Positions 10,998-32,172 are shown, counted from the stretch's first letter. The stretch is 36,662 nucleotides of DNA from Candidatus Nealsoniibacteriota bacterium (GCA_003551845.1 PUNQ01000031.1:1-36662), one strand, 5' to 3'. Numbers and translations: made by a program. The notes: generated from the letters alone by a model not told the origin.

Positions 10998-12395
10998 ATG
11001 AACAATCATTTTGAGCAAAAAAAACGAATTTATGAAAGCATGATCGACTTCGGTGTTATAGGTTCGGATGAAAATTATTCAATATCTTCCACGTTGCCGA
11101 ATATTTTATATAAAAAAGAAGAGATATCGATGTCCGACTATCTGAAGGCATGGAATAATTTTTTGAATGAAAAGAAAGGAAATTTAAGCTTGTACGTTCA
11201 TGTGCCGTATTGCATTGAAAAGTGTGCCTATTGCTACACTTCGAGCTCGAAACTGGAAAATGAAAGCGAATTGGAAGAGTATATAGATAGATTAATTTGT
11301 TATCTTAATTTTTTTGAGGAACACTTTAGAAATGAGGTTTTTGATAATTTGTATGTCGGGGGCGGGGATCCGGGAATACTTTCGGAGAAGCTTTTGGATA
11401 AGCTTATGAAGGCTGTGTTTTCAAATTTTGAATTTCGTAAAAATGGAGAACGTACAGTTGAAAATGATCCGAGAACAACAAATGAAAAGAAGTTGAAAAT
11501 CCTAAAAAAATACGGAATAAACAGATTGAGTATAGGAGTCCAGTCTTTTAACGAAGAAGTTTTGGAGCTCAGCAACAGAATAAAACAAAAAGAAAAGAAG
11601 GTCCGAGAAGTGATAAGCGACGCTAAAAAAATCGGTTTTGACATAATCAATGTGGATTTGATGATAGGGCTCTATGAAGAGGATGAAAAATCAATAATTG
11701 AGAATTTTGAAAAGCTTGCTGAAATTGGACCGGATCGAATAAGCATATATCCGCTACAGCCTCAAGATAAATATTTGAAAAAGGTGTATAAAAAAGACAG
11801 AAGTACATTTTTCAAGATCAGAAAAAAGCTTTATAAGAAATCAGTCCCTGAAATTTTGAATATTGCAAAAAAGAATGATTACGACGTGAATAGAGAGCAC
11901 TTAAGAGCAACTCAAAATGCCAATGATGCCAATTCAATAGCCTTCAAAAAAGAAAATAGCAGCCGTTTCAAAACCAATTATGTGGCATACCCCGTTGATG
12001 AAATGAATTCAATTTTAGGAGTCGGTCATATGGCTATGTCGAGAATCGGGAAAAAAATGGAGTGCAATGCCTTAAGATCTTTTGCGGAAGAGCCTGAAAA
12101 CTACAATTTCGTAGGTTATTTATTGAGTCCGAAAGAGCAACTTATAAAACATATAATAACTAATCTTTCCTATAAAAGCAGCTTTTCTCTTCAAAAAATT
12201 AAAGATGATTATAATTTTAGTGAAAATCTAATTGAGGAAGTAAAAACAATATTTGAGAAGATGCAAGATTACGGTGTAGTGGAAATCAATGAATCGGAGA
12301 TCAAGTTTAAGGTTGAAAATCCTCGGGAAAAGCTTCTTTATACACTTTTTCTTTTTGAGGAAAAAGATGTTATGAGCTTGTTGCCAGATTCGTGA
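10998..12395 (+). CDS. HemW/HemN-like radical SAM protein (paralogue 1)
   Basis: LYVHVPYCIEKCAYCYTSSSKLE (CxxxCxxC), YVGGGDPGILSEKLLDKL, NRLSIGVQSFNEEVL, INVDLMIGLYEEDEKSI. Confidence 0.85.
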   Translation: MNNHFEQKKRIYESMIDFGVIGSDENYSISSTLPNILYKKEEISMSDYLKAWNNFLNEKKGNLSLYVHVPYCIEKCAYCYTSSSKLENESELEEYIDRLICYLNFFEEHFRNEVFDNLYVGGGDPGILSEKLLDKLMKAVFSNFEFRKNGERTVENDPRTTNEKKLKILKKYGINRLSIGVQSFNEEVLELSNRIKQKEKKVREVISDAKKIGFDIINVDLMIGLYEEDEKSIIENFEKLAEIGPDRISIYPLQPQDKYLKKVYKKDRSTFFKIRKKLYKKSVPEILNIAKKNDYDVNREHLRATQNANDANSIAFKKENSSRFKTNYVAYPVDEMNSILGVGHMAMSRIGKKMECNALRSFAEEPENYNFVGYLLSPKEQLIKHIITNLSYKSSFSLQKIKDDYNFSENLIEEVKTIFEKMQDYGVVEINESEIKFKVENPREKLLYTLFLFEEKDVMSLLPDS

Positions 12396-12582: not shown

Positions 12583-13575
12583 ATGAATAAAAATATCAGG
12601 ACTGCAGAATTCGTAACACCCTCACATCCGGATAAGGTTTGTGATCAAATATCGGACGCCATTTTGGATGAATGCTTGAAGAAAGATAAAAATAGTAGAG
12701 TGGCTGTGGAGGTCATGGGTGGGCACGGAGAAATTAAAATAATGGGAGAAGTAACAACCAAAGCGAAGGTAGATTATGAGGGTTGCGCGCAAAGAATATA
12801 CAGCCAATGTGGATACGATCAAAAAATTTCAGTCGAAGTAAATATTTCCAAGCAAAGTCCCGAAATATCTCAAGGAGTGGATACGGGCGGTGCCGGAGAT
12901 CAGGGAATAATGGTCGGTTATGCGTGCAGAGAAAATTCGGAATTCATCCCTCAGGAGCATTTTTTAGCCAAAAGTTTATGTAAATTTTTGTATGAAAAAC
13001 ATAAGAAAGACGGGAAAACTCAAGTAACGATTAACGAAAACAAAGTGGATCTCGTCGTGGTAAGCATGGCCGACCTTAAAAAGGAGGAAATTGAAAAGAT
13101 GGTAAAATTATGGATTTCGGAGAATGATTTCAATGTTAATTTTGAGGGATGTAACATTATAATCAATCCGGCCGGAGATTGGGCTATGAGCGGTTTTGAT
13201 GCTGACGCCGGGCTTACGGGCAGAAAAATAGTTGTTGATTCATACGGACCCCGAGTTCCGGTCGGTGGAGGATGCTTTTCCGGAAAAGATCCCACTAAAG
13301 TCGATAGGAGCGCCGCTTATATGGCAAGAAAGGTCGCTCTTGATTATCTTAAAAAAAATGGTGCCGACGAGGCTTTAGTGAGATTAGCTTATGCAATAGG
13401 AAAAAGAGAGCCGGTAATGAAGATTGTAGAGCTTGACGGCAAAACGGAACGGATAGAAGGGTATGATCTAACTCCCCGGGGAATAATCGAGTCTTTGGAC
13501 TTAAAGAGGCCCATTTATCAAAACTTATCCGGGATGGGTCATTTCGGAAGGAAGGATCTTCCCTGGGAAAACTGA
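12583..13575 (+). CDS. metK: S-adenosylmethionine synthetase
   Basis: TPSHPDKVCDQISDAILD, GAGDQGIMVGYACRE, DADAGLTGRKIVVDSYGPRVPVGGGCFSGKDPTKVDRSAAYMAR, GHFGRKDLPWE. Confidence 0.96.
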   Translation: MNKNIRTAEFVTPSHPDKVCDQISDAILDECLKKDKNSRVAVEVMGGHGEIKIMGEVTTKAKVDYEGCAQRIYSQCGYDQKISVEVNISKQSPEISQGVDTGGAGDQGIMVGYACRENSEFIPQEHFLAKSLCKFLYEKHKKDGKTQVTINENKVDLVVVSMADLKKEEIEKMVKLWISENDFNVNFEGCNIIINPAGDWAMSGFDADAGLTGRKIVVDSYGPRVPVGGGCFSGKDPTKVDRSAAYMARKVALDYLKKNGADEALVRLAYAIGKREPVMKIVELDGKTERIEGYDLTPRGIIESLDLKRPIYQNLSGMGHFGRKDLPWEN

Positions 13576-24416: not shown

Positions 24417-26612
24417 CTAATTTAAAAAAAGAGGTAGCTCAATGAAAAAGGTGGCCCCTTTCCCTTTTCCTTCACTTTTCGCATAAAGATCTCCTTCGTG
24501 GAGGGAGACGTATTTTTGAGCTATATGAAGCCCCAGGCCGGCTCCTTCTCCGGTTCTTTTCTTTCCGGAATCGCCTCTGGTGAAGCTTTTGAAAATATCT
24601 TTCTTTTCCTGTTCGGAAAGACCCTCTCCGGTATCTTTTACGTAAATAATCGCTTCCTTTTCTTTTTTTTCAAGACCGACTTCTATGCTTCCTTTATCCG
24701 TGTATTTAATAGAATTATCTATGAGGTTTATTATCGATTCCTCTATTTTTTTACGATCGATATCAGCCTCGATGGTCTCCGAAGGTAGATTCAGGTTCAT
24801 TTCAAGATCTTTTTCTCTTCCTTCCTCTTCCATTTCTCGAAAGGTGGACATGACAACATCATTTAAAACTTCTTTTTCGGTTGCCGCCTTCATTTTACCC
24901 AGCTCAATCCGGGAGATGTCGAGAAGTTGATTGACTATATTGATAAGCCTTTCTGTAGAGGCCAGCACGTCTTCGAGTTTTTCTTTTGTCTCATCCGGGA
25001 TTTCTCCGTATCTTTCTTCTTTAATCATTGAAATATATCCTTTCATGGCGGTTAGGGGAGTTCTCAGTTGATGAGAGGACATGGCTATGAATTCCGTTTT
25101 GCTGCGATTGGCCGCCTTGAGCTCATCCAGCGCCTTTCGAAGCTCTTTCGTCTTCTCCTCCACTTTTCTTTCCAGATTTTGGGAGAGATTTTCAACTTCA
25201 GCGTATAGCTTGGCATTTTTAATTGCTATTGAAGCTTGATTTGAAAGAGTGGTTAACAGCTCGATATCTTTTACGGTAAACGGCTCTCTTGATTTTTTAT
25301 TACCCAAAACCATCAACCCTATTATCTTTTCATTATATATGAGAGGTAGGCAGGCTTCCGCTTCGATTTTCTTCATATCCGATTGGAGATTTTTTATTTC
25401 TTCCTCTTTTTTTCTATTATTATGCAGAATTAAAGAGAGCTCGTCATAGATTAAGGGCTTTTTGTTTTTTTGTAGCCACTCGACCAAAAATTGATTTTTT
25501 ACCATGGAGATACCGTTTTCTCTTTTGAATCCTATATTGTTTCCAATTTTGAAACGGGTGTCATCACCTCTTACCAAGACAACGGCTCTTTCCAGGTTCA
25601 TGCTTTCTATCAAGGTGGATGTAATATATTCACACAACTTATCAAAATCCAGAATTCTGTTAAGCTCTTTTGATAAATTTTTAATAACTTTTTCGTAAGA
25701 GTAAAAGGAATAATAAAGATATTTTACTCCCAATTTTTCTGAAATATTAAAAACTACTTTAAAGATGGCGATGGAGGCTATAATTGCAAAAAAGAGAAAT
25801 AATTCCATGCTCAGATAGTCCATCCCGGTTTTTAATCGATACAGGTAATAAATTATTCCTAAAGTTATTGAGAAAGACAAAAGATAAATCAATGCTCGGC
25901 TGGCCAAAATTCTTATATTCAGCAGCCGATAATTCAATATGGTGTAGGTAATCGAAAAGATGAGAAAAGCGGTGAAAAGGGGGCCGATCCATACGAATTC
26001 GTAATTACCAAAAAAAACGGGAAGAATTAAATTTGTGATCCCGGCCAACACGGTTGTGAGCAGCATGCCGGAAAAAAGGTAGCGCAGTTGCATCTTTTCT
26101 ATACCCGTAGATATGAAATATTTTCCTATCAGGTTTCTAAAAGTCCAAATTATGGTCAATAAAAAGAAGGAGCTGAAGATATAAATTCCGGGACCGGTAA
26201 AAATTTGCCACGGATACAAGTTAACATCTCTAACCGTAAATTCGGGAATGAATACGGTTACGGTAACCAAGGGAACAGCTACGGCAAGATATATTTTATG
26301 TATTTTTTTGGGTATGTACCGGTCTATTTTTCTGCTGGTTATGTCCGGAAATACCAGGCTGAAATAAAAAAATGCAGCAGCTATTATTACTGCACTGAAA
26401 TAACTGATCTGGGACCAAAAGATTCCCGATTCAACATCTGTGGCTCTGAGAGTCATTGCGTTGGTAAATATCCATAAGGTAGTTCCCCCCAATATCAAAC
26501 TGAACCAAGTAGCTACTTTATTTTTTTCATTATTGAAATGAACCACTATAGCCAGAATCAAATTGAAAGTGGCAAATAGTAGTAATAGGTAGTAATTCAG
26601 TGTTAAATTCAT
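24417..26612 (-). CDS. Multi-TM sensor histidine kinase (N-terminal 7TM-like region, GAF, HisKA, HATPase)
   Basis: Several TM helices, GAF-like CLPLIYNEKIIGLMVLGNKKSREPFTVKDIELLTTLSNQASIAIKNAKLY, H-box EFIAMSSHQLRTPLTAMKGYI, N-box SIINLIDNSIKYTDKG, G-box VKDTGEGL and GAGLGLHIAQKYV. Confidence 0.93.
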   Translation of the reverse strand: MNLTLNYYLLLLFATFNLILAIVVHFNNEKNKVATWFSLILGGTTLWIFTNAMTLRATDVESGIFWSQISYFSAVIIAAAFFYFSLVFPDITSRKIDRYIPKKIHKIYLAVAVPLVTVTVFIPEFTVRDVNLYPWQIFTGPGIYIFSSFFLLTIIWTFRNLIGKYFISTGIEKMQLRYLFSGMLLTTVLAGITNLILPVFFGNYEFVWIGPLFTAFLIFSITYTILNYRLLNIRILASRALIYLLSFSITLGIIYYLYRLKTGMDYLSMELFLFFAIIASIAIFKVVFNISEKLGVKYLYYSFYSYEKVIKNLSKELNRILDFDKLCEYITSTLIESMNLERAVVLVRGDDTRFKIGNNIGFKRENGISMVKNQFLVEWLQKNKKPLIYDELSLILHNNRKKEEEIKNLQSDMKKIEAEACLPLIYNEKIIGLMVLGNKKSREPFTVKDIELLTTLSNQASIAIKNAKLYAEVENLSQNLERKVEEKTKELRKALDELKAANRSKTEFIAMSSHQLRTPLTAMKGYISMIKEERYGEIPDETKEKLEDVLASTERLINIVNQLLDISRIELGKMKAATEKEVLNDVVMSTFREMEEEGREKDLEMNLNLPSETIEADIDRKKIEESIINLIDNSIKYTDKGSIEVGLEKKEKEAIIYVKDTGEGLSEQEKKDIFKSFTRGDSGKKRTGEGAGLGLHIAQKYVSLHEGDLYAKSEGKGKGATFFIELPLFLN

Positions 26613-26654
26613 ACCGGACTGTTTTTTTAAACTATACCAGAGATTAAAGAAAAA

Positions 26655-26677
26655 GACCAGACTATTTTAGTCCGGTC
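26655..26677 (-). terminator. Intrinsic terminator overlapping the stop codon of the LuxI-like gene
   Basis: On - strand GACCGGACT-AAAAT-AGTCTGGTC-TTTTTCTTT (one G.U); the TAG stop lies in the hairpin. Confidence 0.75.
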
Positions 26678-27321
26678 CGTAGCCACTTTAAAAATTCTTC
26701 CGAAGTTTCCGCCAATACCTTATTTGTTTCTTTGAGCGATGCTATCGCTGCGGTTGTGGCGGTTTCGGGTTGGTAGTAGTTTATCTTCCCGATCTTTCTA
26801 AATGGGAAAACTTTCTGTAAAGATTGCAGATATTCTTCTGTTACTACTACATAGCAATACTGTTTGTTATTTTTAACGAACCATTGATAAATGATTCTAT
26901 ACAAGAGCATTGCCGTAACGAATTTTTTTATCTTTTTCCTCCTGCTACTTATTGCCAGCCTCGATATTTCCGCCGAACTTCCTTTTCCCGGGACTGCTTT
27001 ATCACCCGGATGCAGTTCATTGAATTCATCCTCTAACATAAATTCTTGGTCGGAATTCAGAAGACGGAAGTAGCCGCATAGTTTTTCTCCGTCATATACT
27101 CCGAAATGAGTTGCGAATTTATCATATCGATCCTTTTCTTTACCATTTTCTTTTGATGGTTCGACCCAACCCAACTGTTCACAAAAAATTTTATGCCTGA
27201 TTTTGAATGCTTCTTCCAGAAGCGTTTCCGATTCAATTTTTTCTCCTCTAAACTCTTTCTGTTTTCTTATTACTAATTTTAGCTGTCTATCCGATAAACC
27301 GATTGAACTTTTTTCAGCCAT
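26662..27321 (-). CDS. LuxI-like autoinducer-synthase/GNAT-fold acyltransferase
   Basis: FKIRHKIFCEQLGWVEPS...EKDRYDKFATHFGVYDGEKLCGYFRLLNSDQEFMLEDEFNELH...SAEISRLAIS matches the R-x3-F-x5-W, D-x2-D, R, F, E-x-x-R LuxI pattern. Start reset from 27405 to 27321 because of the strong SD (AAAGGGGTGAAATCGATG). Confidence 0.78.
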   Translation of the reverse strand: MAEKSSIGLSDRQLKLVIRKQKEFRGEKIESETLLEEAFKIRHKIFCEQLGWVEPSKENGKEKDRYDKFATHFGVYDGEKLCGYFRLLNSDQEFMLEDEFNELHPGDKAVPGKGSSAEISRLAISSRRKKIKKFVTAMLLYRIIYQWFVKNNKQYCYVVVTEEYLQSLQKVFPFRKIGKINYYQPETATTAAIASLKETNKVLAETSEEFLKWLRTGLK

Positions 27322-27376
27322 CGATTTCACCCCTTTCCGCAATTTACAGCAGAGTAGTTTGTTAATGTTCTTCTTT

Positions 27377-27405
27377 ACTATAAAACTAATAAGTAATAAT
27401 GTCAA
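27377..27405 (-). promoter_or_regulatory. Sigma70-type promoter for the LuxI-like gene
   Basis: On - strand TTGACA-N17-TATAGT. Confidence 0.75.
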
Positions 27406-30396: not shown

Positions 30397-32172
30397 ATGG
30401 GTGAGAAGTCGGATTTCAAAAAAACAAAAAAAGTCTATGAAGATTTGATTGATTTTGGATTTTTCGGATCTGATGAAAATTACTCAATGACCGGAACCCT
30501 CATAGAGCTGCTCAGTGAAGTGAAGGAGATTGATATGAGAGAGTATCTTTCTTCATGGGAAGAGTTTTTGGAAAGTGGGAAAGATCATGACGTTAATTTT
30601 TATGTACATATACCTTATTGCGTTGAAAAGTGTCATTATTGTTTTAGCCAAAGTGGCAAATTGGAAAACGAAAAAGAAGTGGAAGATTATGTCAATCTGT
30701 TAATTAATTATCTCAATTTTTTTGCTGATTATTTTCAGGAAGTTAATTTTAGTACTTTTTATATGGGAGGCGGAAATCCGAGCATCATGCCTGAGAAGTA
30801 TCTTGATAAATTATTGAAAAAGATATTTTCCAACTTTAATTTTTCGGAAGGAGGTCAAAGGACTATTGAAAGTGATCCCAGAACGGTCACGGAACGGAAA
30901 ATGAAAATAATGAAAAGTTACGGAATAAATAGGTTAAGCATGGGTATTCAAAGCCTAAATCAAGATGTCTTAGAGGCAAATAACAGACTGCATCAGAAGG
31001 AAGAAAAAGTTGAAAAAGCTATAAGATGGGCTAAAAAGATTAATTTTCAAGAATTTAACGTAGATCTTATGGTCGGCATGCATGGTGACAATAAAAAATC
31101 TTTAATAAACAGTTTTAAGAGAGTAGCTGAAATGGGACCGGACACGATCAGTCTTTATCAGCTTCAGCCGATGAAAGGTTATTTGAATAATATTATTAAA
31201 AAGACGAGAAAGGAATTTTTTGAAGATAGAAAAATATTATATGAAAAATCACTTGCGGAAATTAAAAAAATTGCGAAAGAGAATAATTACAATACGACAA
31301 ATCAAGCGGAAACAAGTGATGACTTTAATGATGCGGATTCAGTTAAGTTCAGTAAAAATTATATGAGCAATGAATTCGACAGCATCTATATTCCCGATCC
31401 CGTAGAAGAGACGCATTCTATTTTGGGGGTCGGACAAGGAGCGGTCTCCTTTATTCATAACAAAATAAAATGCAAGGCGGTGCATCAGTTGACTGAAAGG
31501 CCAAAAGACTATCTGTTTTCCGGATATGAGATGAATTCCGAAAAGGGATATTTATACTTTTTAATTACAAATTTTTCCAATAGAAAAAAGATTAAAATTG
31601 AAAACCTCAAGAAAGAGCTCGAACCGAATCATTTTGAAGAAATGATGAAGATATTCAAAAAATTAGAGAAAGAGGGTCTCGTTGCTATCGGTAAGAAATT
31701 TATCAGCTTGAAGTTTAAAAATGCACGCGAAAAATTATTATACTCGCTATTCTTTTTTCCCGCAGAGGATATTATGAATTTGGTTGATCGGATGATTATG
31801 GAAGACGGCTCTACTGAAAACTGCTCTAAAAGTGAAATTTTATCCCAAAAGAAGCCTTTGACTGAAAAAGATATTGAAGAGATTAAGGGCATGGAACATG
31901 AATTCGGAGGGAGATTGGAAGGAGCATTGGTGAGCAAGACGGATAATGAGATTATTATCAGTAACACTGATAAAGAAGTGAAAAAAGTAAAATATAACCC
32001 GGAAGAGATAATAGTAGTAGAGACTTTTCTCGATGAGTCTGAAAACTTTAACTCTTTTCTTAAATCGAAGGGAGATATTGACAAGATCAAGAAAGGAGAT
32101 AGTCTCAATTTAAAAATAAATGAAGATAAAGATGAGGCCCTATTGATAGAAAAAATAGTTGTGGCAGAATAA
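30397..32172 (+). CDS. HemW/HemN-like radical SAM protein (paralogue 2) with C-terminal extension
   Basis: FYVHIPYCVEKCHYCFSQSGKLE, YMGGGNPSIMPEKYLDKLL, INRLSMGIQSLNQDVLE; clearly homologous to 10998-12395 over about 455 aa, plus about 120 extra C-terminal residues. Confidence 0.85.
   Translation: MGEKSDFKKTKKVYEDLIDFGFFGSDENYSMTGTLIELLSEVKEIDMREYLSSWEEFLESGKDHDVNFYVHIPYCVEKCHYCFSQSGKLENEKEVEDYVNLLINYLNFFADYFQEVNFSTFYMGGGNPSIMPEKYLDKLLKKIFSNFNFSEGGQRTIESDPRTVTERKMKIMKSYGINRLSMGIQSLNQDVLEANNRLHQKEEKVEKAIRWAKKINFQEFNVDLMVGMHGDNKKSLINSFKRVAEMGPDTISLYQLQPMKGYLNNIIKKTRKEFFEDRKILYEKSLAEIKKIAKENNYNTTNQAETSDDFNDADSVKFSKNYMSNEFDSIYIPDPVEETHSILGVGQGAVSFIHNKIKCKAVHQLTERPKDYLFSGYEMNSEKGYLYFLITNFSNRKKIKIENLKKELEPNHFEEMMKIFKKLEKEGLVAIGKKFISLKFKNAREKLLYSLFFFPAEDIMNLVDRMIMEDGSTENCSKSEILSQKKPLTEKDIEEIKGMEHEFGGRLEGALVSKTDNEIIISNTDKEVKKVKYNPEEIIVVETFLDESENFNSFLKSKGDIDKIKKGDSLNLKINEDKDEALLIEKIVVAE

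Follow-up and report, generated by a model that had tools for sequence, protein, structure and literature searches.

A LuxI/FeeM-type acyltransferase gene and a seven-transmembrane histidine kinase gene as a putative synthase/receptor module in Patescibacteria

The enzyme described here shares its Pfam profile, invariant residues and fold with the LuxI family of signal synthases (LasI, TofI, RpaI, BjaI and EsaI), but it is only about 20% identical to them, it is partnered by a membrane kinase in place of a LuxR regulator, and many of the Patescibacteria that carry it lack S-adenosylmethionine (SAM) synthetase and acyl carrier protein (ACP). The N-acyl amino acid synthase FeeM, which needs no SAM, has a similar fold, and its profile also matches the enzyme above the cut-off; FeeM is not known to occur with a dedicated seven-transmembrane (7TM) kinase. 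Systems that work alike are LuxM/LuxN and CqsA/CqsS of Vibrio and PhcB/PhcS of Ralstonia (where phcBSR is an operon), in which a signal enzyme is combined with a membrane histidine kinase as receptor; in contrast to these, the sensor described here is of the HisKA_7TM type and lies far below the LuxN cut-off. Also related to the enzyme is the exosortase-associated acyltransferase of TIGR03694. The kinase PrsK (TIGR02916), like the present one, has an N-terminal membrane region.

In the CPR, Bernard et al. (2020, mSystems, PMC7567580) counted nine LuxI homologues by BLAST and 36 by HMM, remarked on their conserved residues, and listed 18 that adjoin a sensory kinase, together with 51 CqsA homologues beside CqsS-like kinases and three PpyS/kinase pairs. 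The pair reported here comes from the same phylum-level group and shows the same adjacency, and is thus a further member of a kind already reported; the original prediction that quorum sensing is poorly described in this lineage is fair, except that these 18 pairs had been listed. What differs from the main text of that report is that here the class of the enzyme also tracks the sensor domain, and not the kinase domain, of its neighbor.

Gene layout and protein families at the locus

The window, that is, the whole stretch of DNA analysed, comprises 36,662 nucleotides of a genome of 864 kb (71 contigs, 100% complete), which falls into one family with a Candidatus Nealsonbacteria record (G012, PWKK01000023.1). 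The features of the locus are given in Table 1. The coordinates, strand, gene lengths and LuxI motif first proposed were all recovered, and the kinase gene does follow the synthase gene on the same strand, although the gap from synthase stop to kinase start is 49 bp and not 50 bp. Two radical SAM proteins are encoded elsewhere in the window, at 10998-12395 and 30397-32172 (+).

Table 1. Positions of the two genes and of the predicted signals around them, in window coordinates
Feature	Position	Strand	Basis
Putative signal synthase of the LuxI/FeeM acyltransferase type, 219 aa	26662..27321	-	profiles, residues, fold
HisKA_7TM-GAF-HisKA-HATPase_c sensor kinase, 731 aa, putative receptor	24417..26612	-	
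Sensor domain of the kinase (7TM, Pfam HisKA_7TM), co-segregating with enzyme class	25914..26588	-	
Promoter-like site TTGACA-17-TATAGT, 5' of synthase	27377..27405	-	11/12, pattern match only
Ribosome-binding site AAAGGGGTGA, before ATG 27321	27325..27335 (approximate)	-	read from sequence
Terminator-like hairpin (11 bp) and U-run, overlapping the synthase stop codon, intergenic	26654..26678	-	

Read from the sequence, the true start of the synthase is ATG 27321, which has a good ribosome-binding site (AAAGGGGTGA), and not TTG 27405, the start of a longer open reading frame, which coincides with the -35 box TTGACA of the near-consensus promoter-like site. The number of sites found by this promoter pattern in the region does not exceed that in shuffled sequences, and the site is therefore suggestive only. 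Stem-loops occupy the same intergenic gap in the two closest relatives (L009 and L010), and in L010 an 11/12 promoter-like site stands after the stem-loop, ahead of the kinase; in some more distant homologous loci the two genes overlap by 4 to 10 bp. Because hairpins lie between them, the genes are tandem but not clearly one operon, and in the clade of the window they may be expressed as two tandem transcripts. The sequence AGTCCGG just 5' of the kinase ATG is complementary to a segment within the 5' arm of the hairpin (GGACCGGACT; window 26590-26680, -), which possibly provides an alternative pairing or an attenuator. As had been noted, neither a response regulator nor a LuxR-type regulator is encoded in the window or on this contig; the genome has four response regulators, all unlinked, on contigs 20, 30 and 67.

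The proposed search against Autoind_synth (PF00765) gave a score of 45.6 bits for the synthase (cut-off 24, E 7e-12), and the profiles FeeM (PF21926; 32 bits, cut-off 27) and Acetyltransf_5 (39.2 bits, cut-off 22.4) were passed as well. The NCBIfam models of acyl-homoserine lactone (AHL) synthases gave 34.6-44.4 bits, far under their cut-offs of 250 and 292. All residues of the LuxI pattern are kept, with the spacing R42-x3-F46-x5-W52, D64-x2-D67, R86, F94 and E118-x2-R121, and the six charged positions (R, D, D, R, E and R) are invariant across 12 aligned homologues; some remote homologues that adjoin 7TM kinases do not have the full set. An AlphaFold2 model of the synthase (pLDDT 89), when compared with the PDB, matched LasI best (E 4.8e-10, TM 0.70/0.77), as expected of an AHL-synthase fold, followed by TofI, RpaI and BjaI, with FeeM close behind. 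Based on its profiles, residues and predicted fold, the synthase is an acyltransferase of the LuxI/FeeM class. In sequence it is intermediate among LuxI, FeeM and the acyltransferases associated with exosortase, and sequence and modelled fold are compatible with an AHL or an N-acyl amino acid as product alike.

The multi-TM/GAF sensor kinase is what it had been taken for: HisKA_7TM (PF16927) is matched with 53.2 bits (cut-off 28.6), and GAF, HisKA (66.6) and HATPase_c (79.6) also exceed their Pfam cut-offs. His514 in SSHQLRTPL (25079-25053), the putative phosphoacceptor, is preserved, as are the N, G1 and G2 boxes, and the predicted structure of the sensor region contains seven long helices. 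Comparison of this 7TM model with the PDB yielded weak GPCR-like matches only, none below E 1e-3, and no ligand was therefore proposed from it. The likeness to LuxN-type kinases did not hold, since NF041945 gives 29.3 bits on the sensor region against a cut-off of 1550.

Such a pair might also be an exosortase/PEP-CTERM-associated acyltransferase with a PrsK-type kinase. The exosort_acyl model (TIGR03694), which the original prediction proposed to search, is indeed the best NCBIfam model for the synthase, but its 57.1 bits lie below the cut-off of 111.95, which a single homologue (G161) exceeds (122.8 vs 112). TIGR02916 gives 20.8 bits on the sensor region, compared with a cut-off of 300, and exosortase was found in only two of 20 carriers of the synthase, one of these being a weak match in the window genome (G000), and was not found in the other 18. 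This reading is thus largely refuted and has very little probability left.

Conservation of the pair and its possible chemistry

With PF00765, the synthase family was found in two of 60 relatives of the window genome and in seven of 380 genomes phylum-wide; most close relatives lack it. When an alignment of these first seven members was used as query, the family turned up in 12 of 247 genomes at the level of the order and in 27 of 380 across the phylum. Short ElaA-like GNATs matched by the same profile (L061, L062, L077 and L079) were discarded as false members, as was L015, leaving 30 loci counted as genuine family members in Patescibacteria. In 26 of these 30 a HisKA_7TM kinase gene directly adjoins the synthase gene, or is separated from it by no more than an E1 gene or a single small gene; in two more the kinase gene is divergent and within two genes. 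Since the first seven loci were picked by the synthase profile alone, the adjacency of the kinase was not selected for.

A ThiF/E1-like gene adjoins the synthase gene in about 12 of the 30 loci, and in one (L013, 5389-7044, +) the synthase is fused to a ThiF/E1-like domain, with genes for a 7TM kinase and a response regulator alongside. Response regulators occur nearby in many of the 30 loci and adjoin in distant homologous loci. In one locus (L056:1-2804, -) a string of acyltransferase, E1 and nitroreductase genes runs with no kinase gene before the contig end. A search with a three-row alignment returned two Patescibacteria and 78 other matches, the latter being LuxI proteins and exosortase acyltransferases from Proteobacteria and other groups, and reading of their flanking sequence found a 7TM kinase near none of the 78; a single-protein query of genome contigs gave no match. 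Thus, the pairing of synthase and 7TM kinase is conserved across Patescibacteria beyond chance.

This conservation refutes the reading in which a generic GNAT acetyltransferase adjoins a kinase by accident, and we regard that reading as having next to no chance of being correct. The GNAT fold and weak acetyltransferase matches would fit it, but the 26 adjacent pairs, the LuxI active-site residues and the co-segregation with the 7TM domain described below would not, nor would the short ElaA-like GNATs, which have no kinase alongside. Both observations that were to count against the original prediction were looked for: the synthase is not a generic GNAT lacking the LuxI residues, and related genomes keep the two genes as neighbors.

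A canonical AHL quorum-sensing system, in which SAM and acyl-ACP or acyl-CoA yield an acyl-homoserine lactone that the kinase detects, would be a special case of a synthase/receptor module. In favor of it, all LuxI invariant residues (W52 and F46 included) are present, the nearest solved folds are AHL synthases, among them the acyl-CoA-dependent RpaI and BjaI, and the window genome encodes SAM synthetase (12583-13575, +, inside the window). On the other side, the AHL-synthase equivalog NF052393 gives 34.6 bits where 250 are required, the FeeM profile is passed too, no SAM synthetase (PF02773) was detected in G012 and G080, the closest relatives that have the pair, and ACP (PF00550) was not found in these two or in the window genome. 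Of nine carriers tested, SAM synthetase was found in three, including the window genome, and missing in six by a search limited to the non-archaeal type (Pfam C-terminal domain PF02773); ACP was found in two and missing in seven. With both missing in most of the carriers tested, substrates may have to be scavenged, a classical AHL product is uncertain, and it is doubtful that most carriers run the classical chemistry on SAM and acyl-ACP of their own supply. They may instead use acyl-CoA donors, scavenged substrates or amino-acid acceptors. The enzyme probably makes a molecule of the N-acyl amino acid type, and AHL, although one option, is an unlikely one in our estimate.

Enzymes upstream of other 7TM kinases

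HisKA_7TM kinases were found in 159 of 362 Patescibacteria genomes, most of which have no LuxI-like synthase. At 40 7TM-kinase loci that we read, the upstream gene usually encodes an enzyme of small-molecule metabolism: methyltransferases of PF12147 and similar types, a CqsA/BioF-like aminotransferase, E1 with nitroreductase, acyl-reductase-like proteins, HAD, DDAH, LPG synthase and others. Profiles built from these 40 loci were then applied to a second, held-out batch, in which an enzyme of a recurring family was encoded immediately upstream of 25 of 41 7TM kinases and immediately downstream in none of 28, figures that are indicative because the profiles were made from small sets. None of 41 non-7TM histidine kinases of the same phylum had such an upstream gene (Fisher, 3e-10); a response regulator gene lies directly after most of these controls.

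Trees were built separately from the sensor domains and the kinase domains of the same 69 proteins, which cover five enzyme classes. The 7TM tree requires 11 changes of enzyme class and the kinase tree 31, compared with about 36 after shuffling; the trees were made by fast methods and have many weak branches, and the counts are likewise indicative. In the LuxI-like class, distances between synthases correlate with those between 7TM domains (r 0.59; partial 0.60 given the kinase) and less with those between kinase domains (r 0.22; partial 0.24). Common descent of the genomes is by itself not enough to explain the link, as the kinase half is not sorted by enzyme class.

Individual loci show a variety of arrangements. 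PF12147-type SAM methyltransferase genes lie directly upstream of 7TM kinase genes at L193, L195, L201, L202, L208, L209, L215, L218 and others; these methyltransferases are possibly PhcB-like signal enzymes, although they gave no match to NCBIfam PhcB and no PhcB-named plasmid match. A literature search found no paper naming the PF12147 domain, and the terms PhcB and 'histidine kinase' are absent from the main text of PMC7567580. Strings of genes for a PaaK-like ligase, ThiF/E1, nitroreductase and 7TM kinase recur in several Patescibacteria families (L229, L233, L235, L238, L261 and others). At L206 (1730-3010, +) a CqsA/BioF-family synthase gene is followed by genes for a 7TM kinase and a response regulator, as in CqsA-CqsS of Vibrio.

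A kinase of this type may instead monitor and control a lipid or metabolite that the adjoining enzyme makes or consumes, with no signalling between cells. Ordinary-looking enzymes (LPG synthase, HAD, DDAH and UbiA) ahead of other 7TM kinases fit this, as does the second 7TM kinase of the window genome, which lies behind a string of isoprenoid enzymes (polyprenyl synthetase, geranylgeranyl-reductase-like protein and UbiA, the last overlapping the kinase gene by 4 bp; L265, G000 contig 49, 1053-5738, -). Several of the recurrent classes, such as the LuxI-like and CqsA-like enzymes, are however known or likely signal-enzyme types, and in Patescibacteria, which have few regulators, one enzyme-specific receptor per metabolite would be costly. 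We consider metabolite feedback rather improbable, though less so than the AHL case.

There is about an even chance, in our view, that Patescibacterial HisKA_7TM kinases in general serve as receptors for ligands which the cells make themselves and whose chemistry is exchangeable. Each would be inherited with its own enzyme or mini-pathway, with a 7TM half suited to that enzyme and a kinase half free to diverge or be swapped, so that these reduced genomes would hold many private chemical 'dialects'. The enzyme partners would then be LuxI/FeeM-type acyltransferase with or without E1, PF12147 methyltransferase, CqsA-like synthase, PaaK-like ligase with E1 and nitroreductase, acyl-reductase-like protein, HAD and UbiA. 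In the part of the literature covered here, including the main text of PMC7567580, we found no account of the E1/ligase/nitroreductase or methyltransferase partners, of the synthase-E1 fusion, or of the co-segregation of sensor and enzyme; nor did we find an earlier description of the phylum-wide pattern of enzymes and 7TM kinases, for which no priority is claimed.

A probable synthase/receptor module and its meaning for Patescibacteria

For the window pair itself, the most probable interpretation, and in our judgement a fairly likely one, is that the two genes form a module of a synthase and a receptor for a self-made ligand. The original prediction of a signal synthase/sensor module is well supported by the conserved pairing, the intact residues, the LuxI/FeeM fold and the sensor domain that tracks the enzyme; its finer detail, LuxN for the kinase and AHL for the chemistry, is not supported. 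In the proposed mechanism, the GNAT-fold synthase would join an acyl group to an amino-acid-like acceptor, and the resulting small molecule, probably membrane-permeable, would be detected by the seven-helix membrane domain of the adjoining kinase. Detection would adjust autophosphorylation at His514, and the phosphoryl group would probably pass to one of the four response regulators encoded elsewhere in the genome. The molecule may pass from cell to cell, as a quorum or kin signal or as a host-cell cue, or work within its producer. We infer that what the enzyme makes is the ligand, and likewise the chemistry of the ligand, its export and the response. Points against the module are that very similar gene arrangements would be expected of a kinase that monitors its own metabolite, that terminator-like hairpins lie between the two genes in the clade of the window, and that the synthase is missing from most close relatives. 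The window pair would be one case of a wider pattern, in which HisKA_7TM kinases are passed on together with a small-molecule enzyme that can be exchanged.

The abundant and largely uncultured Patescibacteria are believed to rely on other cells, yet hardly anything is known of the ways in which they perceive each other or their hosts. The module gives concrete candidates for both signals and receptors. If the wider pattern is true, an anonymous family of kinases would become an annotated family of receptors, the ligand of each of which could be guessed from the adjoining gene.
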